The position numbers were made by a program, and so were the translations under genes. This document shows positions 4,581 through 16,787 of a stretch of 64,000 nucleotides of DNA, piece by piece (position 1 is the stretch's first letter; each line of letters opens with the position of its first letter). The notes under the pieces are model-generated. The model was not told the origin of the DNA. It did not search any database and saw nothing but the letters and a program-made list of their open reading frames with translations. The stretch is taken from positions 772,308 through 836,307 of the forward strand of contig NZ_LT732526.1 in NCBI RefSeq assembly GCF_900155545.1, in the 5' to 3' direction. The DNA is from Clostridium sp. Marseille-P2415. Lineage in GTDB: Bacteria > Bacillota > Clostridia > Lachnospirales > Lachnospiraceae.

Positions 4581-4806
4581 TTATCAGTTTTGAACTATCT
4601 ATATTCTTTTGATCGAACACATGGGATTTGGTCTTGTTTTGTACAGGATTAAATCCCTGATTCTTTCATCCATATGCTCCTTTGAAATAAAATCCAAACT
4701 CTTTTTTATTCCTTCGATACCTTTGAAATGTTAAAACTAAGTGATACTTATAAAAGATTCACTGGTACATATACGAATAAAATTAACTCCAGAAGGGAGA
4801 TTTTCT

Positions 4807-5967
4807 ATGGCAATCGTCGTAAAAAAGTTAGTAAAGAATGCATATTTCTTATATAAGATGGAATTGGTTGCCGGAAGGAACGGGATGAATAACCTGGTTC
4901 AATGGGTCCATATCATTGAGGATGATGCGGTCAGCCCCTTTCTGCATGGTTATGAACTGGTATTTACAGCGGGAATTTTAAACAAATCCGATCATTGGCT
5001 TTTGGATTTTGCAAAAAAGCTGAATATGTCAGGGGTCAGTGCATTTGTAGTTAATTTAGGACCTCATACAAAAGAAATTCCCAAAGAAGTAGCAGAGTAC
5101 TGTGATGAAGTCAATATGCCATTGTTTACCATACCGTGGGAGACCCGAATGGTCGACATGACCAGGGATTTCTGCCGCCGGATCATGGTAAATGACAATG
5201 TAGAAAACAGTATGGCGACTACGATCAAGAATATTATATTTAACATTGGAGATTTGGAATCCCAGATATTACAGATGGAGCGCAACGGTTATAAAAGAAG
5301 CGACACATTTTGCTTTATCAGTCTTCTGGCTGAAAGAAATGAAAGTGCAGCTTTTGAAGAATTTATGGATCGGCTTACCATATATGCAGAAAAAACAGCA
5401 AGAAAAATCCACGAATTATTTATCTCCTTTACGTATAAAGAAAATCTTGTATTTGTATTGGTCGATTACTCGGATGAAGAAATAGAAAGCTTTGTAAAAG
5501 ACTTTTTAGAGCATGTGAAAAAAGAGAAAAATGAATCACTGGTTCATCTGGGAATCAGCTCCAATCAGCCAGGAATCTATAATCAGGAGCAGAATTTTGA
5601 GAGATCCATATCGGCCATGGAAATGGCGGAAAAGCAAAAGGAAATGGTACTTTTTTATGACCGTTTAAGTGTTTATAAAATTTTATATTCGGTCAAAGAA
5701 CGATCCGTATTGAGGAGTTTTTACAATGATACCATTGGTTTGTTGGAAAAGTATGACAGAGAAAACAAAACAGATTTGATCTCTTTGCTAAGAACTTATT
5801 TAGAAAATAACGGAAGCCTTCAGCTGGTATCGGAGAAAATGTATATTCACCGAAACACAGTGACAAATCAATTAAAGAAAATTGAAACAATAACCGGATT
5901 CAATCCTATGGAGTTAGAAGATAAGGTAAAATTATATCTGGGCTTCTATATTCAGGATATTATTTGA
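4807..5967 (+). CDS. PucR-family transcriptional regulator of the pyrimidine operon
   Basis: 386 residues. The N-terminal PucR domain (about 1-125, 'HGYELVFTAGILNKSDHWLL') is the ligand-sensing type found in purine, allantoin and pyrimidine catabolism regulators. The C-terminus (about 325-385) has the PucR helix-turn-helix 'SEKMYIHRNTVTNQLKKIE'. ATG 4807 is chosen because AGAAGGGAG lies just upstream; a GTG at 4741 has no ribosome binding site. The gene stands immediately before, and on the same strand as, the pyd operon. It is the obvious candidate to control that operon, perhaps through the palindrome at 6032-6053. The effector cannot be read from sequence; uracil, dihydrouracil or beta-alanine are guesses. 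Confidence 0.87.
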   Translation: MAIVVKKLVKNAYFLYKMELVAGRNGMNNLVQWVHIIEDDAVSPFLHGYELVFTAGILNKSDHWLLDFAKKLNMSGVSAFVVNLGPHTKEIPKEVAEYCDEVNMPLFTIPWETRMVDMTRDFCRRIMVNDNVENSMATTIKNIIFNIGDLESQILQMERNGYKRSDTFCFISLLAERNESAAFEEFMDRLTIYAEKTARKIHELFISFTYKENLVFVLVDYSDEEIESFVKDFLEHVKKEKNESLVHLGISSNQPGIYNQEQNFERSISAMEMAEKQKEMVLFYDRLSVYKILYSVKERSVLRSFYNDTIGLLEKYDRENKTDLISLLRTYLENNGSLQLVSEKMYIHRNTVTNQLKKIETITGFNPMELEDKVKLYLGFYIQDII

Positions 5968-6231: not shown

Positions 6232-7557
6232 ATGTTGGGTGAAGAGATTAGAGGTACATTAAAGGAATATAACTTACAATCCTGGAGCAAGCAGAAAAAC
6301 ATAAATCCAATTCCAGTAGAAAAGGCAGACGGAATTTACTTTTGGGATTACGAAGGCACCCGGTATAGTGATATGTCCTCTCAGCTTGTGAATATGAATC
6401 TTGGTTTCGGAAATCAGTCCATCAGCCAGGCAATTAAGGATCAGGTAGATCAGTTTTGTTTTGTAGGACCCTCCTACGGTGCAGAGTCTAGAGCAGTTCT
6501 TGCAAAAAAAATTATTGATTTAATGCCTGATACCATGGGAAAAGTATTCTTTACCAATGCAGGGGCAGAATCCAATGAGAATGCCGTAAAAATTGCGAGA
6601 ATGTTTACCGGAAAGAATAAAATCTTCAGCCGGTACAGAAGTTATCATGGTTCTTCCTTTGGCGCCGGTAACTTAACCGGAGAGCCAAGAAGATACACAT
6701 TGGAGCCGGGAGTTCCTGGTTTTGTGAAATTTTTTGATCCCTATGTTTACAGAGAAGCCATTGATTTTGAGTCAGAGGAGGCGGCTTCCAGCTATTACTT
6801 AACAAAGTTAGAAGAGCAGATTCAGTATGAAGGACCAAACAGCATCGCAGCCATTGTGATGGAGACGATTACAGGATCAAATGGAATCCTGATTCCGCCA
6901 AGAGGATATATGCCCGGGGTTCGAGCCCTTTGCGATAAGTATGGAATTTTAATGATATGCGATGAAGTCATGACCGGCTGGTGCCGTACCGGCAAAATGT
7001 TTGCATTTGAACATTTTGATATTAAACCGGACATTGTAACCTTTGCCAAGGGAGTTACCTGCGGTTATGTTCCTCTTGGCGGAGTGGCGGTCAGCAAAGA
7101 GATTGCCGCATACTTTGACGATAACCTATTATCCTGCGGACTTACATACAGCGGCCACCCCTTATCCTGTGCAGCAGGTATTGCATGTGTCAATTATTAT
7201 GAAGAAGCAGATATCTTAGGCAATGTAAATAAGGTCGGCCAGGTTTTAGGTGAAAAGCTGGAAGAAATGAAAAAGACCCATGCATGTGTGGGAGATGTCC
7301 GCTACATCGGTTTATTTTCAGCCGTTGAACTTGTGAAAAGCAAAGAGACAAAGGAAGCTTTGGTACCATACGGGAAAGACCCGGAAGGCATTATGGGAAA
7401 AATAGCAGGACTTTTAAAAGAGCGGAAGTTTATGACTTATACCCATGAAAATATGATATTAGTTGCACCTCCGCTGATTATTACAAAGGAGCAGCTGGAA
7501 GAAGAGCTGGCCAAAATGGATGAAGTACTTACGATTGTAGACCGGGAGTTTTTATAA
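6232..7557 (+). CDS. pydD: Class III aminotransferase, probable beta-alanine transaminase (PydD)
   Basis: 441 residues with all marks of class III PLP aminotransferases: 'FFTNAGAESNENAVKIAR', the 'ICDEVMTGWCRTGK' cofactor-Asp motif, and the Schiff-base Lys273 in 'TFAKGVTCG'. The family transfers omega-amino groups to a keto acid. In this operon the substrate is inferred to be beta-alanine, giving malonate semialdehyde for the next gene product. The start at 6232 follows AGGAGG. It is the first gene of the operon, directly behind a terminator-like leader. GABA or taurine transaminase would be possible from sequence alone; the neighbourhood decides. Confidence 0.85.
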   Translation: MLGEEIRGTLKEYNLQSWSKQKNINPIPVEKADGIYFWDYEGTRYSDMSSQLVNMNLGFGNQSISQAIKDQVDQFCFVGPSYGAESRAVLAKKIIDLMPDTMGKVFFTNAGAESNENAVKIARMFTGKNKIFSRYRSYHGSSFGAGNLTGEPRRYTLEPGVPGFVKFFDPYVYREAIDFESEEAASSYYLTKLEEQIQYEGPNSIAAIVMETITGSNGILIPPRGYMPGVRALCDKYGILMICDEVMTGWCRTGKMFAFEHFDIKPDIVTFAKGVTCGYVPLGGVAVSKEIAAYFDDNLLSCGLTYSGHPLSCAAGIACVNYYEEADILGNVNKVGQVLGEKLEEMKKTHACVGDVRYIGLFSAVELVKSKETKEALVPYGKDPEGIMGKIAGLLKERKFMTYTHENMILVAPPLIITKEQLEEELAKMDEVLTIVDREFL

Positions 7558-7581: not shown

Positions 7582-8733
7582 ATGGCAGCTCAATTTACGT
7601 TACCGGGACGAACAATATTAGGAGCAAATGCATTAGAGAGCAGTGAAAATGCAATAAAGGGCTTAGGCAAAAAAGCGTTTATCGTAACAGGAAAAATAGT
7701 AACAAAAATGGGAACAGTCTCTATGCTTACCGGTTATCTTGACAGGTGGAAAATCGATTATAAAATATTTAATGATATAACAGGCGAGCCGACGGATGAT
7801 ATGGTTCTTGCAGGTGTAAAGGCCTATCAGGATTCCGGATGTGATTTTCTGATTGGAATCGGAGGAGGAAGTCCGTTGGATAGTGCCAAAGCAATCGGAG
7901 CTATGACCACGCTAAAAGGAAATATCGCAGATTATATGGGCGTTGAGATCAAAGGCAAGTTTCCGCCTCTGGTGCTCATACCTACAACTGCCGGAACCGG
8001 CTCAGAGACAACAAAGTTTACGGTGATAACGGATACGGAAAAAGGGGTAAAGATGCTTTTAAAAGGTGATGACTTACTTCCTGAGATAGCCATCATTGAT
8101 CCGGAGTTTACGGTGACAGCGCCAAAAAGCATCACCGCTGCAACCGGGATGGATGCTTTAACTCATGCAGTGGAGTCTTATGTCTCAAGAAAGGCAAATG
8201 CCCTGACAGATCTTTATGCATTATCTGCAATCAAACGTATCTTTCAATATTTGCCTCTTGCCTATGAGGATGGAACAGATAAAAAAGCAAGGGAAGAGAT
8301 GTCCATTGCCGCATTTGAAGCAGGTGTCTGTATCAATAATGCATCGGTAACCATTGTCCATGGAATGAGCCGGCCCATCGGAGCATTGTTTCATGTTCCC
8401 CATGGTATTTCAAACGCTATGCTAATTACGGAGTGTTTGTCTTATGTGGCCGACGGCTGTTACGGCAGATTTGCTGATATGGCTAAAGCAATCGGAGCAG
8501 CAACGGAAGTAACCGATGAAAAAGAAGCCAGTGAAGCATTTTTTAAAGCTTTAAAGAAGCTTTGCAGCCAATGTGAAATTCCAACGCTGAAAGAATATGG
8601 AATCCGGAAGGAAGACTTTGAAGCAGTTTCCGATAAGATGGCCGGTGATGCCATGGCGAGCGGAAGTCCCTCTAACACAAGAAAAGAGATTTCCAAAGAA
8701 GATTTATTAAAAATATATAGTAGATTGTTTTAA
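7582..8733 (+). CDS. pydE: Iron-containing alcohol dehydrogenase, probable malonate semialdehyde reductase (PydE)
   Basis: 383 residues of the Fe-ADH (group III) family. The cofactor-binding 'GIGGGSPLDSAKAIG' and 'PTTAGTGSET' are followed by the metal-binding region 'MDALTHAVESYVSRKAN' and 'HGMSRPIGALFHVPHG', which supplies the Asp and His ligands. In the described clostridial reductive pyrimidine pathway an enzyme of this family reduces malonate semialdehyde to 3-hydroxypropionate with NAD(P)H. The gene begins 24 bases after pydD with an AGAGGTG ribosome binding site, so the two are co-transcribed. The family is certain; substrate is inferred from context. Confidence 0.83.
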   Translation: MAAQFTLPGRTILGANALESSENAIKGLGKKAFIVTGKIVTKMGTVSMLTGYLDRWKIDYKIFNDITGEPTDDMVLAGVKAYQDSGCDFLIGIGGGSPLDSAKAIGAMTTLKGNIADYMGVEIKGKFPPLVLIPTTAGTGSETTKFTVITDTEKGVKMLLKGDDLLPEIAIIDPEFTVTAPKSITAATGMDALTHAVESYVSRKANALTDLYALSAIKRIFQYLPLAYEDGTDKKAREEMSIAAFEAGVCINNASVTIVHGMSRPIGALFHVPHGISNAMLITECLSYVADGCYGRFADMAKAIGAATEVTDEKEASEAFFKALKKLCSQCEIPTLKEYGIRKEDFEAVSDKMAGDAMASGSPSNTRKEISKEDLLKIYSRLF

Positions 8734-8821: not shown

Positions 8822-9649
8822 ATGGTGAATATAGAGATCATAGATGAAGAATTTAAAGAAAGAGACGCATCACTTCCAAGAGAAACGGAAATTAAAATTG
8901 AAAATTTAAGTGTCAAATTCCCTGACAAAAACGGTGGAGAACCAATTGCAGCACTATCCAATGTTAATTTGGAAATTAAGCAGGGGGAATTTATTTCTCT
9001 TCTTGGACCTTCCGGATGCGGAAAAACGACCTTACTTCGAACCATTGCCGATTTACAGGAAAAGACATCAGGAAATATTTCCGTTCGGGGCTTATCACCA
9101 AGAGAGATCCGCCTGCAAAAAAAATATGGGATCGTGTTCCAGTCACCGGTGCTTTATGAATGGAGAACGGTTCGAAGAAATGTATGTATGCCGATGGAGT
9201 TACTCGGTATGCAAAAGAAAGACCGGACGGCAAGAGTAACAAAAATGCTTGAATTGGTGGGACTTATGGAGTTCGGAGAAAAATATCCTCATGAGTTAAG
9301 CGGAGGGATGCAGCAAAGGGTCAATATCGCAAGAGCCCTGGCGATCCGGCCGGAAATCCTTTTAATGGATGAACCGTTTTCCGCTCTGGATGAATTTACA
9401 AAGGAAAAGCTTCATGAGGATCTTTTGCGTATTTGGCAGAAGACCAATAAGACTATACTATTTGTTACCCATAACATTCAGGAAGCCGTTTATCTGTCTG
9501 ACCGGGTGGTAGTGCTTTCTCCTCATCCGGGCCGGGTATCAGCCATTGTAGACATTGATCTTCCAAGGCCCAGACCAATAGAAATGAAGGAAACCCAGGA
9601 ATTTAATGCTTTGGTATCCAAGGTAAGAAACAGCTTTGAGGGGGTATGA
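8822..9649 (+). CDS. ABC transporter ATP-binding protein (NitT/TauT type), pyrimidine or hydantoin uptake
   Basis: 275 residues. Walker A 'GPSGCGKTTLL', signature 'LSGGMQQRVNIARAL', Walker B 'ILLMDEPFSALDE' and switch His in 'FVTHNIQEA' are all present. The sequence is of the SsuB/TauB/ThiZ branch that energises uptake of sulfonates, nitrate, pyrimidine precursors and similar compounds. ATG 8822 has GGAGG 7 bases upstream. Its last four bases overlap the first permease start (ATGA), showing translational coupling. The cargo is inferred from the pyd context: uracil, dihydrouracil, hydantoin or N-carbamoyl-beta-alanine. Confidence 0.88.
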   Translation: MVNIEIIDEEFKERDASLPRETEIKIENLSVKFPDKNGGEPIAALSNVNLEIKQGEFISLLGPSGCGKTTLLRTIADLQEKTSGNISVRGLSPREIRLQKKYGIVFQSPVLYEWRTVRRNVCMPMELLGMQKKDRTARVTKMLELVGLMEFGEKYPHELSGGMQQRVNIARALAIRPEILLMDEPFSALDEFTKEKLHEDLLRIWQKTNKTILFVTHNIQEAVYLSDRVVVLSPHPGRVSAIVDIDLPRPRPIEMKETQEFNALVSKVRNSFEGV

Positions 9650-10467
9650 GTATGATTCAAATCAAAAAGATACTTTCTTCCAAGTATATGGTAACGCTTG
9701 TGTGGGTGATCGGTCTCGTTATCCTATGGGAGATAGGGGCAACCGTAATAGAAGGAACCAAGCGTTCTCCGGAGAATGTACTGCCTCATCTGTATCAGAT
9801 CCTGGGATCTGTGGTTGAAACCAATAAAGTAAATGGAACCCAGACCGCGTTTCAGATTGTATTAAGCAATGCGGGAATTACGTTTCTTCGGGCAGGAATC
9901 GGCTTTGTAATAGGAGCGGGAGTTGGATTTTTACTTGCGCTGCTGATGAATTTGTTTTTACCGGTTGAGAAGATATTGTTTCCATACCTGATGATGATAC
10001 AGATGATTCCTATTCTTGGTATGGCGCCAATTGTTCTTGCCATCACAAAAGACATTAATAAAAGCCGGATTATCATTGCTGCAATATTGACCTTTTATCC
10101 GGTTGCCACCAATACACTGGCCGGATTTAAATCCGTTTCAAAAGAAAAACATGAACTGATGTATTCCCTTGCAGCAAGTAAATTCGAGATTTACCGGAAA
10201 TTATTGATTCCGTCTTCCCTGCCGTATTTTTTTACCGGCTTAAAGATATCGGCACCCATGGCAATCACAGCAGCAATCCTTGTTGACACCTTGCAGGGAG
10301 GAGCAGGACTGGGAACCGCACTTTCCCAATCATTAAAGCATGCCACTACCATTTATATCTTTTGGCAGATTGTATTTTTAAGCGCTATTATTGGTATTCT
10401 GAGTTTTTATCTTATGGTTTTATTGGAGCAGACCATATCACCATATAAGAAAAAGAAGAAAAAGTAA
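9646..10467 (+). CDS. ABC transporter permease (first)
   Basis: 273 residues with about six hydrophobic segments. It carries the BPD-transp-1 EAA-type loop ('YSLAASKFEIYRKLLIPSSL'), where the ATPase docks. It overlaps the ATPase gene by four bases and is followed by the second permease 11 bases later. It belongs to the NitT/TauT permease family (SsuC-like). The C-terminus is Lys-rich. Together the two permeases form the membrane channel, probably as a heterodimer. Confidence 0.87.
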   Translation: MSMIQIKKILSSKYMVTLVWVIGLVILWEIGATVIEGTKRSPENVLPHLYQILGSVVETNKVNGTQTAFQIVLSNAGITFLRAGIGFVIGAGVGFLLALLMNLFLPVEKILFPYLMMIQMIPILGMAPIVLAITKDINKSRIIIAAILTFYPVATNTLAGFKSVSKEKHELMYSLAASKFEIYRKLLIPSSLPYFFTGLKISAPMAITAAILVDTLQGGAGLGTALSQSLKHATTIYIFWQIVFLSAIIGILSFYLMVLLEQTISPYKKKKKK

Positions 10468-10478
10468 AAGGAGAGGAC

Positions 10479-11288
10479 ATGAAGAAAAAAAGATATTTCA
10501 AATGGGATAAACAGTCTGCCGCAACGGTACTTTATCCGGTGTTATTTGGTATCCTTTTGCTGATTCTATGGCAGACACAGCTTTTGCATAAGTTGATCGG
10601 AGCAGATACATTTGCACTTCCTCTTCCAGGGAGAATCCTTAGGATCATTATGGATAATGGGCCGGCAATTATAAAAAATGTAAAGGCAACCGTAATTGTA
10701 GCAACCGGAGGACTTCTTTGCGGCTCTGTATTTGGATACTTACTGGGAGTCATTGCAACGGTCTTTCCGAAATGGGGTGCCGGCGGCTTAAGCATTGCAT
10801 CAGCTGTCAGTGCAGTACCAATTATTGCAATTGCCCCGATCTTAAATAATTTAACAAAGGATTTCAGTGACGATGCCAATGTAAGAAGCATGCTGGCAAA
10901 GACCATTGTAGTCACCATAACCTGTACGGTATCCATGAGCATCAATGCTTACAGAGGTTTAAACGAATTAAAGCCATTTTCATTGGATTTGATGAAAAGC
11001 TATGCGGCGAGTAAATCAACAGTCTTTTTAAAACTGAGGATCCCAAACAGTGTACCATACATATTTGTTGCCTTAAGAGTCAGTGTACCTGCCAGCATCA
11101 TCAGTGCCTTAGTCAGTGAATATTTTGCTGAATTCATCATTGGGGTAGGCAGACAGATCCGGGAAAATATCGTGCTTGCCCAGTATGCAACTGCCTGGGC
11201 GTACATTGTAGTAGCTTGTTTCATCGGGATCATTATGTATGGAATATTGCTTGCAGCAGAAGGTACCTTGCTGAAGGGAAGAAAATAG
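10479..11288 (+). CDS. ABC transporter permease (second)
   Basis: 269 residues, a second SsuC-like permease with about six membrane segments and its own docking loop ('MKSYAASKSTVFLKLRIPNS'). ATG 10479 follows AAGGAGAGG. It is a divergent paralogue of the previous gene rather than a duplicate, which fits a heterodimeric channel. It stands between the first permease and the substrate-binding lipoprotein. Confidence 0.87.
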   Translation: MKKKRYFKWDKQSAATVLYPVLFGILLLILWQTQLLHKLIGADTFALPLPGRILRIIMDNGPAIIKNVKATVIVATGGLLCGSVFGYLLGVIATVFPKWGAGGLSIASAVSAVPIIAIAPILNNLTKDFSDDANVRSMLAKTIVVTITCTVSMSINAYRGLNELKPFSLDLMKSYAASKSTVFLKLRIPNSVPYIFVALRVSVPASIISALVSEYFAEFIIGVGRQIRENIVLAQYATAWAYIVVACFIGIIMYGILLAAEGTLLKGRK

Positions 11289-11324: not shown

Positions 11325-12494
11325 ATGAAAAAACGAACAGGAAATTTAACCGCAGCAGCATTAACTCTTGCACTTACAACGGCAGCATTATCAGGCTGCG
11401 GAAGTTCACCAGAGAAAGAAGCAGCTCAGACAACGGCAGCAGCAGAGAGTACAACAGCCAAAGAGACAGGCACGAAAGAACCTGAGAGTACAGGAAAATA
11501 TTATTCTGCCAGTGCCGGCGCAGAAGATATCGTAGTGGACGCTGCAAGCAAAGGAAAGGTCGGCAACTGGGGCCTTGGCAATGAGTACGAGGTTCAGGCT
11601 CTTTTGACCAAATATGGTCAGAGCACCGATTTCTTAAGTCAGGCATTTGACATGGACGGCTTTGATGATGATTCCATTCTGCTGGCTTCTGCCATGACCT
11701 ATAACGAGCTTGGTCTTGTAAAGAACACATACAAAGGCGGATATTCTTATGGGGATTCGGTAAAATACATCGATATGAATGATGAAGGAGTAGCAATGCT
11801 TGAGGATAATATTTTTACGACAAAGGAATTTGCAGAGGCAAATCCCAACACAGTAAAAGCATTTGTCCGCGCATCCATGAAAGGCTGGGAGTATGCCTGT
11901 GCGAATCCGGAGGAAGCCGCTGAAATCGTATTCAATGCCGGTTCTTCCGTATCCAGCGAGCATCAGGCTTACATGGCAGAAGAAGTGAAGAAATTAGTGG
12001 AAACAGATACAAAAGGGAATAAAGTAGTTGATCTTGGAAAACTGGATGATGAAGCGCTGCAGCAGACCCTTGATTTAGCTAAAGAATACATCAAATTAGA
12101 CGACAGTGCTGCAGCGGAAAAATTACAGACGTTAACCTTGGATGATTTCCGTGATGCATCTTACTGGACCGATGCAATGAGTGACGTAGAACTGGGCACA
12201 CCGGAAAAAACAGATGTATCCATTCAGTTAAAATGGCTGCCTCAGGCGCAGTTTATGGGTTATTATGTGGCAGCAGCAAAAGGCTATTATAAAGATGCCG
12301 GCTTAAATGTAACCATTACACCAGGCGGCGGAGATATCGGTGAAACAACAGCAGTAAACTCCGGGCAGGTAGATTTTGGTGTGACCTGGGATGCAAACCT
12401 GATTGCAGCAAATGCAGGCGGCATGAATTTGATTGCCGTATCACAGGTATACCAGAGATCCGGCTTAGTACTTGTATATAAGGTAAACGAATAA
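11325..12494 (+). CDS. ABC transporter substrate-binding lipoprotein (NMT1-like), apparently circularly permuted
   Basis: 389 residues. A lipoprotein signal ends at lipobox 'LSGC' (Cys25), followed by an Ala/Thr/Glu-rich linker to about residue 57. What follows is unusual. Residues 58-290 match the second part of NMT1/THI5-like binding proteins ('GKVGNWGLGNEYEVQALL', 'ASAMTYNE', 'MNDEGVAMLEDNIF', 'NPNTVKAFVRASMKGWE', 'NPEEAAEIV'). Residues 296-389 match what is normally the N-terminal lobe ('VSIQLKWLPQAQFMGYYVAA', 'GQVDFGVTWDANLIAANAGG', 'AVSQVYQRSG'). The order is therefore swapped, with new termini in the hinge, while both halves are complete and in one frame. It should hold the substrate at the outer membrane face for the permeases upstream. 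AGGAGG lies before ATG 11325. Confidence 0.87.
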   Translation: MKKRTGNLTAAALTLALTTAALSGCGSSPEKEAAQTTAAAESTTAKETGTKEPESTGKYYSASAGAEDIVVDAASKGKVGNWGLGNEYEVQALLTKYGQSTDFLSQAFDMDGFDDDSILLASAMTYNELGLVKNTYKGGYSYGDSVKYIDMNDEGVAMLEDNIFTTKEFAEANPNTVKAFVRASMKGWEYACANPEEAAEIVFNAGSSVSSEHQAYMAEEVKKLVETDTKGNKVVDLGKLDDEALQQTLDLAKEYIKLDDSAAAEKLQTLTLDDFRDASYWTDAMSDVELGTPEKTDVSIQLKWLPQAQFMGYYVAAAKGYYKDAGLNVTITPGGGDIGETTAVNSGQVDFGVTWDANLIAANAGGMNLIAVSQVYQRSGLVLVYKVNE

Positions 12495-12588: not shown

Positions 12589-13968
12589 ATGGATTTATTA
12601 ATTAAGAATGGAACGATTGTTTCGGAAAAAGAAACATTTATGGGCGATATTGCAGTAAAAGACGGAAAAATCGTTTGCATTGGAATGAATTTATCGGTTG
12701 ATGCAAAAGAAGTTGTTGATGCCGCTGGAAAACTTGTTTTACCTGGAGCGATTGATGTACATACCCACTTAGCAATGCCTTTTGGCGGAACGGTTTCCGC
12801 AGACGGCTATTTATCAGGAACAAGAGCGGCAGCATGCGGCGGTGTGACCACCGTATTTGATTATCCGATTCAAAGAAAAGGAAAAGGAATCGTGGAAACG
12901 GTTCAGGAAAGAAAGGATATGTGCGACCCGGAAGCCTGTGTGGATTATGCATTTCACTGCTGTATCACGGATCTAAACGAAGGTGCCATTTTAGACGAAT
13001 TTGAAGCAGCCGTGGATTATGGCATAACCAGTTTTAAATGTTTCCTTGTTTATAAAAAAGAAGGCATGATGGTGGATGACGGTACCCTGGTCCGAATACT
13101 CAAAAAAGCGAAAGAAGCAGGAGCCATCACAAATATTCATGCTGAAAACCCCGATGTCATTGATTTGAATATTGAGCAGTTTAAGTCAGAGGGAAAAACA
13201 TCTGCATGGTACCACTATTTGAGCCGGCCGGAATATGTGGAGGCTGAAGCAGACAAACGGGCAGTGCATTGGGCAAAATCAGTAGATGCACCTCTTTATA
13301 TCGTACATATGGCTGATAAGGAAGGTCTGGAAGCAGCAGTCGCTGCCAAGAGAGATGGCTATCCTGTTTATATTGAAACCTGTCCTCAGTATCTGGAATT
13401 TACCTGTGATGTTTATAAAAGAGAAGATGGCAGGAACTTTGTCTGCTCTCCGCCTATGAAGGATCAGGAAAGTCAGGATGCGCTCTGGAAAGCGGTTATG
13501 GATGGAAGCATTGATACGGTGGCAACCGACCACTGTCCGTTCCAAAGCTATGAAAAAGACTGGGGAAAAGACGACTTTACAAAGATTCCCAACGGTTGTG
13601 CGGGAATAGAGAATCTATATCCTTATATGCTATCCAAAGCCAATGAAGGGAGAATAAGCTTCAACCGTGCGGTAGAACTTTGTGCAGCCAAACCGGCCAA
13701 GATTTTCGGATGCAGCCAGAAGGGTTCTTTGACGGTTGGAAAAGATGCGGATATCGTGATCTATGACAGGAATAAAGATTTAACCATTTCCGTCGATAAT
13801 ATGCATTCCGATTATGATCACACCATATGGGAAGGAATTAAGGTACAAGGCTATCCGGTACAAACTTATGTGAGAGGGACATTAGTATATGATAATGGGG
13901 AATTTGTAGGAACTCCGGGGTATGGAACCTTTGTAAAGCGAGAACCTCAAAAATATGGTTTGGAGTGA
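12589..13968 (+). CDS. pydB: Dihydropyrimidinase / hydantoinase (PydB)
   Basis: 459 residues of the cyclic amidohydrolase family. The binuclear zinc site is complete: His58 and His60 in 'DVHTHLAMPFGG', the carboxylated Lys150 in 'SFKCFLVYK', the His residues in 'NIHAEN' and 'YIVHMADKEG', and Asp314 in 'VATDHCPF'. The enzyme opens dihydrouracil to N-carbamoyl-beta-alanine, and also hydantoins. ATG 12589 follows AAGGAGG. pydA begins four bases after its stop. D-hydantoinase is the alternative name; the neighbouring dihydropyrimidine dehydrogenase makes dihydropyrimidinase the better call. Confidence 0.9.
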   Translation: MDLLIKNGTIVSEKETFMGDIAVKDGKIVCIGMNLSVDAKEVVDAAGKLVLPGAIDVHTHLAMPFGGTVSADGYLSGTRAAACGGVTTVFDYPIQRKGKGIVETVQERKDMCDPEACVDYAFHCCITDLNEGAILDEFEAAVDYGITSFKCFLVYKKEGMMVDDGTLVRILKKAKEAGAITNIHAENPDVIDLNIEQFKSEGKTSAWYHYLSRPEYVEAEADKRAVHWAKSVDAPLYIVHMADKEGLEAAVAAKRDGYPVYIETCPQYLEFTCDVYKREDGRNFVCSPPMKDQESQDALWKAVMDGSIDTVATDHCPFQSYEKDWGKDDFTKIPNGCAGIENLYPYMLSKANEGRISFNRAVELCAAKPAKIFGCSQKGSLTVGKDADIVIYDRNKDLTISVDNMHSDYDHTIWEGIKVQGYPVQTYVRGTLVYDNGEFVGTPGYGTFVKREPQKYGLE

Positions 13969-13972
13969 TAAA

Positions 13973-15481
13973 ATGAATAAATTATTATACAAAGAAGCTT
14001 CCCTTTTAGAGGAAGCTGGCGGTTGTCTTTTATGCAATGAGGCACCCTGCACCAAAGCATGTCCTTATGAACTGGGAATAGACAAAATAATACGGTGCTA
14101 TCGTTTTGAAAATAAGGCTGGCGCCATCAATCGCCTTCCGGAAAATTTTCCCTGTCAGAACTGCACAGATAAGCCGTGCTTATCAGCCTGCTTAAAAGGA
14201 AAAATTAATACACCGGTCCCTATACCTGATATGTTTGAAAAACTTTCTTCCTATATTAAGCCGGAGATGGAAGAAGTGGATTTATCCATAGATTTTTGCG
14301 GGATTCCATGTGAAAATCCTTTTTTCCTGTCTTCTTCCGTAGTGGGAAGCAATTACGAGATGGTAGCAAAAGCCTTTGACATGGGCTGGGCAGGGGTTGC
14401 CTTTAAAACCATTGGAGTCTTTGTTCCCCAGGAGGTATCCCCCAGATTTGATGCTCTGAAAAAGGAAGCACTTCCTTTTGTCGGCTTTAAAAATATAGAA
14501 CAGATTTCAGATCATACCTTAGAGGAAAATCTGGCGTTTATCAGGGATTTGAAAAGAGATTATCCGACCAAGATATTTGTTGCTTCCATTATGGGCCAGA
14601 CTGAAGAAGAGTGGACTTATCTTGCAAAAGTTGTAACCGAAGCAGGTGCGGATATCATCGAGTGTAATTTTTCCTGTCCTCATATGGCAGCCAATGGATT
14701 AGGCTCTGATGTGGGCCAGAATCCGGAACTGGTTGCAGCTTATTCAAAAGCAGTGAGAAAAGGAACGCATCTTCCTGTTTTGGCAAAAATGACACCTAAT
14801 ATAGGAAATATGGAAATACCGGCACTTGCGGCAATGCAGGCAGGAGCGGATGGAATTGCAGCCATTAATACAATAAAGAGCATTATGAACGTGGATACAG
14901 ATACTTTTGTATCCGGACCTTTTGTGGAAGGCAAAACCAGTGTGGGAGGTTATTCCGGGAAGGCAGTGAAACCCATTGCTCTACGGTTTATCCATGCAAT
15001 GAAAACCCATCCCGAACTGTCTCATGCGCCCGTCAGTGGAATGGGCGGAATTGAAACCTGGAGAGATGCATTTGAGTTTATGGCGCTTGGCTGTGAAAAC
15101 ATTCAGGTTACAACGTCAGTCATGCAATATGGGTACCGGGTTATTGATGATATGATAGAAGGAATGAAATATTATTTAAGTTCCCATGGCTATAAAAGTG
15201 TAAAAGAAATTGTTGGGAAAGCACTGGTTCATACCATACCGGCAGATGAACTGGAACGAGATTCCATCAGTTACCCCAAATTTGACAGAAATAAATGTGT
15301 GGGATGCGGAAGATGCTACTTATCCTGCTATGACGGAGGACATCAGGCATTAAAGCAGGATGAAAACACAAAGAAACCGGTTATGGACGGAAAAAAATGT
15401 GTAGGGTGCCATCTTTGCGCATTGGTATGCCCGGTAGGCGCAATATCGGCAGGCACCAGGGTGAAAAAGAAGAGAGTATAG
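13973..15481 (+). CDS. pydA: Dihydropyrimidine dehydrogenase, PreA-like with extra N-terminal Fe-S region (PydA)
   Basis: 502 residues from ATG 13973, chosen over an ATG at 13955 because GGAG lies 7 bases before it. The N-terminal 100 residues carry two cysteine clusters ('CLLCNEAPCTKACP', 'CQNCTDKPCLSAC') like domain I of mammalian-type DPD. The middle is an FMN-binding dihydroorotate-dehydrogenase-like barrel with the active-site Cys235 in 'ECNFSCPHM'. The C-terminus has two ferredoxin-type [4Fe-4S] motifs ('CVGCGRCYLSC', 'CVGCHLCALVCP'). It reduces uracil or thymine to the dihydro form. No PreT-like FAD/NADPH subunit is encoded nearby, so the electron donor may be ferredoxin or an unlinked protein. 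Family assignment is firm. Confidence 0.9.
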   Translation: MNKLLYKEASLLEEAGGCLLCNEAPCTKACPYELGIDKIIRCYRFENKAGAINRLPENFPCQNCTDKPCLSACLKGKINTPVPIPDMFEKLSSYIKPEMEEVDLSIDFCGIPCENPFFLSSSVVGSNYEMVAKAFDMGWAGVAFKTIGVFVPQEVSPRFDALKKEALPFVGFKNIEQISDHTLEENLAFIRDLKRDYPTKIFVASIMGQTEEEWTYLAKVVTEAGADIIECNFSCPHMAANGLGSDVGQNPELVAAYSKAVRKGTHLPVLAKMTPNIGNMEIPALAAMQAGADGIAAINTIKSIMNVDTDTFVSGPFVEGKTSVGGYSGKAVKPIALRFIHAMKTHPELSHAPVSGMGGIETWRDAFEFMALGCENIQVTTSVMQYGYRVIDDMIEGMKYYLSSHGYKSVKEIVGKALVHTIPADELERDSISYPKFDRNKCVGCGRCYLSCYDGGHQALKQDENTKKPVMDGKKCVGCHLCALVCPVGAISAGTRVKKKRV

Positions 15482-15560: not shown

Positions 15561-16787
15561 ATGATTGAATGCGATTATGAAAGAATGGAAGATAAGATTA
15601 AAACCTTTAGCCGGTTTGGCGATACGGGAAAGGGGGGGATCACAAGATTTTCCTTATCGGAAGAAGCCATTGCCGCAAGAAAAGAATTCATAAAGCGTAT
15701 GGAGGCAATTGGGGCCTCTATTGCGACAGACGATATGGCAAATATATATGCAACCATTGCCGGAACAGAAGATTTACCTGCCATTTTTTCAGGTTCCCAT
15801 ATGGATTCCGTACGGCAGGGAGGAAATTACGATGGAATTTTAGGTGTCTTAACCGCAATGGAAGTGGCGGAAACCATTGTAAAAGAAAAAATACCTCACA
15901 GGCATCCGATTACGGTTATCGTATGGACCAACGAAGAAGGCGCAAGATTTGAGCCGGCGATGATGTCTTCCGGTGTTATCTGCGGAAAATTTGACAAAGA
16001 GACTATGCTTGCTTCGCAGGCAAAAGACATTCCGGGGTATACCTTTGGAGAAGCTTTGGAAAAAAGCGGTTTTAAAGGAAAGGAAGAAAATCGGCTGGAT
16101 CCTACTAAAACAAAGGCCTTAGTGGAACTTCATATCGAACAGGGACCTGTACTGGAGGCAGAAGGGATTGATATTGGAGTGGTAGAAGGCGTTTGCGGTA
16201 TGATTAATTATGAATTCACTTTTACCGGGCAGGCAGGCCACGCAGGAACAACACCCATGAAATACCGTAAGGATGCTCTTTATGCAGCGGTGAAAACCAT
16301 TCAATATCTCCATGATGAGCTGGACCAGCTGGATAGCAAATTAGTTTATACCACAGGTAAGATTTCTGCCCATCCAAACATTCATACCATTATCCCCGAT
16401 GAAGTAAAGATTACCCTGGATGCCAGACATCAGGATCCGGAAGTGATCAAGCAGGTACTTGCAGTTATTAAAAAAATTCCAGGCGTTGTGGAGCAATGCA
16501 AGGTGAGCTATGAGGAAGCATGGTCACGTAAGACCGTAAGCTTTACTTCCGAACTGGTTGATTATGTGGAAAAAAGTGCACAGGAATGCGGTTATTCCAA
16601 TCGGAGAATATACAGCGGTCCGGGCCATGACGCGCAGTTTGCGATAGATCTGGTTCCGGCTACCATGATATTTGTACCCAGCGTAGGAGGACATAGTCAT
16701 TGTGAAATTGAATACACTCCCGTGGAAAACTGCTTAAAAGGAGCAAATGTACTTTTAAAAACAATTTTACACATTGATAAGCAGTAA
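15561..16787 (+). CDS. pydC: M20-type amidase, probable N-carbamoyl-beta-alanine amidohydrolase (PydC)
   Basis: 408 residues of the Zn-dependent hydantoinase/carbamoylase family. Motifs include the metal site 'SGSHMDSVRQGGNYDGILG', 'WTNEEGARF', 'ELHIEQGPVLE', the dimerisation-domain 'GQAGHAGTTPM', 'DARHQDP' and 'GGHSHCEIEYTP'. It hydrolyses N-carbamoyl-beta-alanine to beta-alanine, CO2 and ammonia, the third step of the pathway, feeding pydD. ATG 15561 follows AGGAGGT. It is the last gene of the operon; a terminator lies about 110 bases downstream. Allantoate amidohydrolase or L-carbamoylase are family alternatives excluded mainly by context. Confidence 0.88.
   Translation: MIECDYERMEDKIKTFSRFGDTGKGGITRFSLSEEAIAARKEFIKRMEAIGASIATDDMANIYATIAGTEDLPAIFSGSHMDSVRQGGNYDGILGVLTAMEVAETIVKEKIPHRHPITVIVWTNEEGARFEPAMMSSGVICGKFDKETMLASQAKDIPGYTFGEALEKSGFKGKEENRLDPTKTKALVELHIEQGPVLEAEGIDIGVVEGVCGMINYEFTFTGQAGHAGTTPMKYRKDALYAAVKTIQYLHDELDQLDSKLVYTTGKISAHPNIHTIIPDEVKITLDARHQDPEVIKQVLAVIKKIPGVVEQCKVSYEEAWSRKTVSFTSELVDYVEKSAQECGYSNRRIYSGPGHDAQFAIDLVPATMIFVPSVGGHSHCEIEYTPVENCLKGANVLLKTILHIDKQ

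Follow-up and report, generated by a model that had tools for sequence, protein, structure and literature searches.

Does the order of segments in a bacterial transport receptor reflect a genuine rearrangement of its fold, or does it only appear rearranged? The question is raised by an open reading frame at positions 11325..12494 of a 64,000-nucleotide stretch of DNA from Clostridium sp. Marseille-P2415 (hereafter the window), which lies on the forward strand, as do all features of the window described below. A first-pass annotation, made from the letters of the window, proposed that this frame encodes an NMT1/THI5-like substrate-binding protein (SBP) whose lobes occur in circularly permuted order. 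That order is borne out by profile matches, by structure prediction, by standard-order relatives in similar gene clusters and by a phylogenetic tree; computation shows a permuted chain with one confident predicted fold, belonging to a single, widely spread clade nested inside the standard form. We conclude, with a probability of about 0.9, that the 389-residue lipoprotein is a natural circular permutant of the NMT1/THI5-like fold and the receptor of an ATP-binding cassette (ABC) importer that most likely feeds pyrimidine degradation. Confidence in the permutation itself is high.

The protein begins, as had been described, with a lipoprotein signal followed by a linker. The signal peptide occupies residues 1-25 (11325..11399) and ends in LSGC at residues 22-25, which fits the lipobox motif. 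A low-complexity Ala/Thr/Glu linker, in which the standard-order profile has no match, then extends to about residue 57 (residues 26-57; 11400..11495). Part A (residues 58-290; 11496..12194) corresponds to positions 96-216 of the Pfam NMT1 profile and comprises the second lobe together with the C-terminal stretch of the first, which in the normal order form the C-terminal two thirds of the protein. Residues 291-295 (12195..12209) are assigned, by alignment with standard-order proteins, to the end of the linker that joins the old C terminus to the old N terminus. Part B (residues 296-389, QLKWLPQAQFMGYYVA ... VYQRSGLVLVYK; 12210..12491), delimited by profile matches and alignment, constitutes in the normal order the N-terminal portion of that first lobe. 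The residue ranges originally proposed for the two parts agree with the profile matches to within a few residues.

Membership of the family is clear from sequence, because the protein scores 106.8 bits against Pfam NMT1 (PF09084; 216 positions), for which the gathering score is 20.5. Each part also exceeds this threshold when searched alone, with residues 58-294 matching profile positions 96-216 (48.3 bits) and residues 295-389 matching positions 2-80 (67.6 bits). Positions 96-216 therefore precede positions 2-80, the reverse of the canonical linear order, and for this reason the protein is classed as a permuted offshoot rather than as a standard NMT1 member. A six-frame genome search gives the same crossing (96-216, then 2-96), in which the second match overruns the stop codon and properly covers 2-80. 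Similarly, a custom profile of 309 positions, made from 11 relatives of standard order, aligns to the native protein with positions 102-293 at residues 73-263 (E-value 1e-48) and positions 3-94 at residues 296-387 (E-value 4e-36). When the chain was reordered by script, these two matches became one continuous match, 3-294. On neither profile do the two parts share positions; only a short stretch at the cut remains unmatched (Pfam 81-95; custom profile 95-101). A phmmer comparison with solved chains shows the crossing again for 4nmy, where query residues 297-364 align with chain residues 7-73 and query residues 153-220 with chain residues 186-252. A Pfam scan at E-values up to 1 returned NMT1, NMT1_2 marginally under its threshold and three unrelated models that also fell short of theirs. 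Profile-based annotation presents a permuted protein of this kind as two separate partial matches.

Structure prediction, another of the checks suggested at the outset, produced a single confident fold for the whole protein, with a predicted local distance difference test score (pLDDT) of 93.2 and a predicted template modelling score (pTM) of 0.92. The best Protein Data Bank (PDB) matches of this predicted model are type II binding proteins. Sequence-order comparison by Foldseek gave the top three matches template modelling scores, normalised by query length, of only 0.39-0.41, with a root-mean-square deviation of about 13 Å, values that are expected for a permuted chain. The new chain start precedes the first helix of the second lobe, and the new C-terminal end follows the strand that in this fold leads out of the first lobe; chain ends placed in this manner fit the proposal that the new termini fall in the hinge between the lobes.

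A different reading of these matches is that residues 58-290 constitute a complete binding protein on their own, with the C-terminal part as an add-on, and the ability of part A alone to exceed the Pfam cut-off speaks in its favour. However, part A spans only NMT1 positions 96-216, and in the structural match its residues (4-231 of the model) cover only residues 95-301 of 4nmy, whereas part B supplies the profile positions 2-80. Moreover, part B yields a poor model when predicted alone (pLDDT 59.0, pTM 0.40), yet its block-mean pLDDT within the whole model is 83-99. On the strength of the profile coverage, the 4nmy match and the poor isolated model of part B, we rejected this reading and consider it very improbable.

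The permuted order could also have been produced by misassembly, a frameshift or a chance succession of motifs. A survey of genome contigs recovered 139 relatives, the best 80 of which were kept, and all 80 carry the permuted order in one open frame, isolates included. Together with the custom-profile E-values for the two parts, this rules out misassembly and chance, to which we assign a negligible probability. Judged by their record titles, 11 of the 80 kept relatives belong to Spirochaetota, and most of the others bear clostridial or Bacillota names. All 85 proteins assigned to the permuted class by an earlier pairwise search show the reversed profile order, namely the window SBP, those from the 80 kept loci and those from four further loci, at least two of which (L084 and L117) appear to duplicate others (L067 and L011). 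The permuted group is old and widespread rather than a local oddity.

Unpermuted homologues are found in pyrimidine-degradation clusters, where the first-pass annotation had suggested looking for them. These standard-order counterparts are 38-55% identical to the permuted form by segment and reside in similar clusters. Nine of the clusters are near to those of the permuted group (L150 and L180-L187), and three of these (L180-L182) come from the taxonomic order of the window itself; further standard clusters are L149, L151-L155 and those of Deinococcus taeanensis (L114) and Qingshengfaniella (L115). An alignment of 81 permuted and 18 standard proteins contains 39 positions common to both forms. 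The availability of permuted and unpermuted proteins this similar, in similar clusters and in the same bacterial order, makes cause and effect directly testable.

The two forms were also counted in drawn, mutually overlapping samples of genomes. Among 398 genomes sampled from the phylum, 30 have a match (E-value 1e-10), consisting of two permuted, seven standard pyrimidine-type and 21 weaker ones. The class sample of 291 genomes gave 15 with a match (five permuted, one standard, eight weaker and one, G560, left out as its gene is split over contigs), and the order sample of 246 genomes gave 14 (E-value 1e-15; 11 permuted, three standard). Only standard matches were seen in two other orders, those of G367 (six of 73 genomes) and G566 (one of nine). 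Within 198 spirochaete genomes, 11 matched, these being the centre genome, picked because it carries the permuted form, and 10 weak matches. No genome with both forms was seen across these sampled searches. Plasmid records include 44 with a match, and the three examined (Azospirillum, Deinococcus and Qingshengfaniella) all carry the standard form. In addition, three loci (L099, L100 and L121) encode standard-order THI5-like binding domains fused to apparent sensor histidine kinases, as judged by eye from their translations.

A tree of 59 receptor sequences (41 permuted, 18 standard), built from the concatenated parts, places all permuted sequences on one side of a branch with support of 100/100. 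This clade lies within the standard form, where a branch with support of 95/98 links it to L086/L120, and its stem is long, at about two changes per column. The permutation seems, from these sequences, to have arisen once. Several sequences (including L120) lie on long branches and the outgroup is not cleanly one-sided (one sequence of six), which leaves some doubt about the root of the tree. If long-branch attraction were at work, it should draw the permuted clade towards the outside of the tree, but the clade lies nested. Within the clostridial permuted clade, the spirochaetes form two distinct groups, which suggests at least two transfers. In three spirochaete loci (L019, L032 and L033), the proteins of the transporter share 67-79% identity with those of the window, whereas the enzymes dihydropyrimidinase (HydA) and the dihydropyrimidine dehydrogenase subunit PreA are 38-46% identical and encoded on the opposite strand. 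The transporter thus seems to have moved there as a unit on its own.

How the permutation came about is less certain. The first-pass annotation envisaged tandem duplication followed by loss of the outer halves, which stands as an unproved proposal. No second copy or half copy of the receptor was found at 101 loci, comprising the window, the 80 permuted loci, whose flanks reach 5 kb at most and are often shorter, and a further 20 more extended regions, of which 16 encode a standard receptor; four weak matches within 1.5 kb (E-values 1.2 to 8) look like chance. The absence of remnants might be taken to favour gene fission and re-fusion in reverse order, or a cut-and-paste event. However, an old event need leave no duplicate, and intermediates are lost under either model, so the missing copies weigh little, and we regard such a route as possible though rather unlikely.

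Permuted ABC receptors are already known, and the window SBP is not the first of its kind, with precedents in print for MglB-2 and OpuAC-type proteins. The glucose-binding lipoprotein Tp0684/MglB-2 is described as a natural circularly permuted ABC receptor (‘Type Ic’/‘Cluster Bc’) that retains ligand binding and is found in treponemes and Gram-positive bacteria (PMC4990184). It resembles the window SBP in being a natural permutation of an ABC receptor, but it has a type I fold and a sugar ligand, whereas the window SBP has a predicted type II fold of the NMT1 family and resides in a pyrimidine cluster. The Pfam matches of the window SBP at E-values up to 1 include no sugar-binding family. The two unrelated permuted types show a curious overlap in hosts, both occurring in treponemes or other spirochaetes and in Gram-positive bacteria.

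A second precedent involves the glycine-betaine-binding proteins 2b4l (OpuAC by its PDB title), 1r9l and 1sw1, which CPSARST reported to be related by permutation among themselves and also to molybdate-binding proteins and CysB, with all pairs under 24% identity (PMC2395249). These betaine receptors have a type II fold and belong to another ligand family, and their similarity to the predicted window SBP model is structural only, in that no OpuAC model is among the Pfam matches at E-values up to 1. No earlier report of a permutation in the NMT1/THI5 family was found in the literature on permuted binding proteins, NMT1/THI5, OpuAC/ProX and pyrimidine transport, in which subscription journals are thinly covered; the available parts of PMC9732360, PMC2861598 and PMC11036815 add nothing on this point. 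The window SBP extends natural permutation to the NMT1/THI5 family, a case made clearer by close unpermuted relatives. Compared with NMT1/THI5-like proteins of solved structure (4nmy, 3ix1 and the THI5 protein 4h6d), the window SBP has a permuted linear order, and its linker and lipid anchor lead into the second lobe. The standard SBPs of pyrimidine clusters resemble it in the kind of gene neighbourhood and in conserved residues, the near ones being 38-54% identical by segment, but these proteins are unpermuted and the near permeases average only 41-42% identity to those of the permuted group.

The genes surrounding the receptor suggest its function. Upstream lie a PucR-type regulator (4741..5967; PF07905 and PF13556; present in 25 of the 80 permuted loci), a class-III aminotransferase, likely acting on beta-alanine judging from context (6232..7557; NF004718 above cut-off; 53 loci), and a putative iron-type alcohol dehydrogenase that likely reduces malonate semialdehyde (7582..8733; all matches below cut-offs; 38 loci). 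These are followed by the ABC transporter ATPase (8822..9649; Pfam ABC_tran; 76 loci) and by permeases 1 (9646..10467; 78 loci) and 2 (10479..11288; 80 loci), both matching Pfam BPD_transp_1. Downstream of the receptor are HydA (12589..13968; NCBIfam TIGR02033 above cut-off; 73 loci), PreA (13955..15481; NF006183 above cut-off; 69 loci) and a hydantoinase/carbamoylase-family amidase that is probably an N-carbamoyl-beta-alanine hydrolase (15561..16787; TIGR01879 above cut-off; 44 loci). The cluster reads as one for reductive pyrimidine degradation, in which context suggests what the aminotransferase, the alcohol dehydrogenase and the amidase do, and the receptor is encoded together with the ATPase, the two permeases and HydA/PreA in the window and in most of the 80 loci.

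From the family and this gene context, the ligand is probably a pyrimidine. Uracil or thymine would be the most likely candidates, bound between lobes that would close in the manner of a Venus flytrap. The closed receptor would then dock on the permease pair, the ATPase would drive import, and the neighbouring enzymes would break down the imported pyrimidine. In the permuted chain, about a dozen linker residues connect the old C terminus to the old N-terminal unit (part B), which now comes after it, and the chain begins near the crossing between the lobes. Both lobes appear to start with the same beta-alpha-beta-alpha-beta-alpha-beta-beta unit, such that exchanging the order would restore a nearly normal topology, and this may be why the permutation was tolerated.

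Could lipid anchoring explain the permutation? For MglB-2, a permutation driven by the membrane tether has been suggested (PMC4990184). A lipobox regular expression matches 74 of the 85 permuted receptors, and among the 11 that it misses, L038 and L056 (with a cysteine after MNG and LYG, respectively), and perhaps L073, still look lipidated. The remaining eight (L019, L027, L032, L033, L034, L043, L045 and L048) have no cysteine at the lipobox position; all except L027 are, by record title, from Spirochaetota, in which such receptors are probably free periplasmic proteins. It thus seems that the permuted form can function without lipid anchoring as well, and we rejected tethering as the sole explanation.

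A further property of the permuted group concerns its membrane partners. Identities were compared for 64-80 permuted, nine near and six to nine far loci per gene. Mean identities within the permuted group and between it and the near group are almost equal for HydA (69.5% and 69.4%), PreA (56.9% and 57.7%) and the ATPase (66.6% and 64.7%), whereas they fall from 64.4% to 42.3% and from 60.6% to 41.1% for the two permeases and from 73.2% to 44.3% for the SBP. Quick per-gene trees, with 26-31 permuted loci out of 31 chosen from the 80, give stems for the permuted clade of 1.92 (SBP), 2.17 (permease 1), 1.81 (permease 2) and 0.26 (ATPase). When both permeases were placed in a single tree, each serving as root for the other (21 and 20 permuted sequences chosen from the 80 loci, permease 1 in seven of nine far loci, two long sequences flagged), the permuted sequences are sister to the near ones for permease 1 (99/95) and for permease 2 (99/94); the stems of the permuted groups measure 1.81 and 1.45, and those of the near groups 0.31 and 0.56, respectively. 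This pattern of stems and identities indicates that the receptor and permeases evolved faster on the permuted branch and the ATPase did not. We infer that the receptor was remodelled jointly with its membrane partners along the branch that fixed the permutation. Columns that consistently differ between the permuted and standard groups number 19 of 273 in permease 1 and 11 of 269 in permease 2 (two of each being gap differences), compared with two of 275 in the ATPase. The differing permease columns are scattered, and are not assigned to a docking face.

One tentative explanation, which we judge on the unlikely side, is that the permutation shifted the chain ends and the lipid anchor between the lobes and altered the contact between receptor and permeases, which would have obliged both permeases to co-evolve. 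If true, the permuted clade would be a natural experiment on ABC receptor docking, with unpermuted sisters from the same order as the control, and a link between permease change and permutation would reveal the parts of an ABC importer that read the lobe order and anchoring of the receptor. Alternatively, the burst could reflect a new substrate (another pyrimidine or a pathway intermediate), with the permutation as a neutral passenger. A change confined to the SBP and permeases, sparing the ATPase, is expected of parts that contact the substrate, and in some spirochaetes the transporter adjoins unlike enzymes; however, 39 positions are common to both forms of the receptor, and both occur in pyrimidine-degradation clusters. 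We give this alternative somewhat less than an even chance.

In the trees of the two pathway enzymes HydA and PreA, the permuted loci are not a clade, and enzymes encoded beside a permuted receptor do not separate from those of the near clusters with a standard one, which may mean that transporters were exchanged against a shared enzyme background. The window PreA carries an N-terminal Fer4_20 domain (PF14691, residues 10-90), which normally belongs to the PreT/dihydropyrimidine dehydrogenase side, and has no match to a flavin/NAD domain. Matches to this PreA start at residues 5-14 in the nine near and five permuted clusters, and at residue 60, 91 or (in four of six) 109 in the six far clusters. 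This domain make-up may point to another electron donor for the enzyme.
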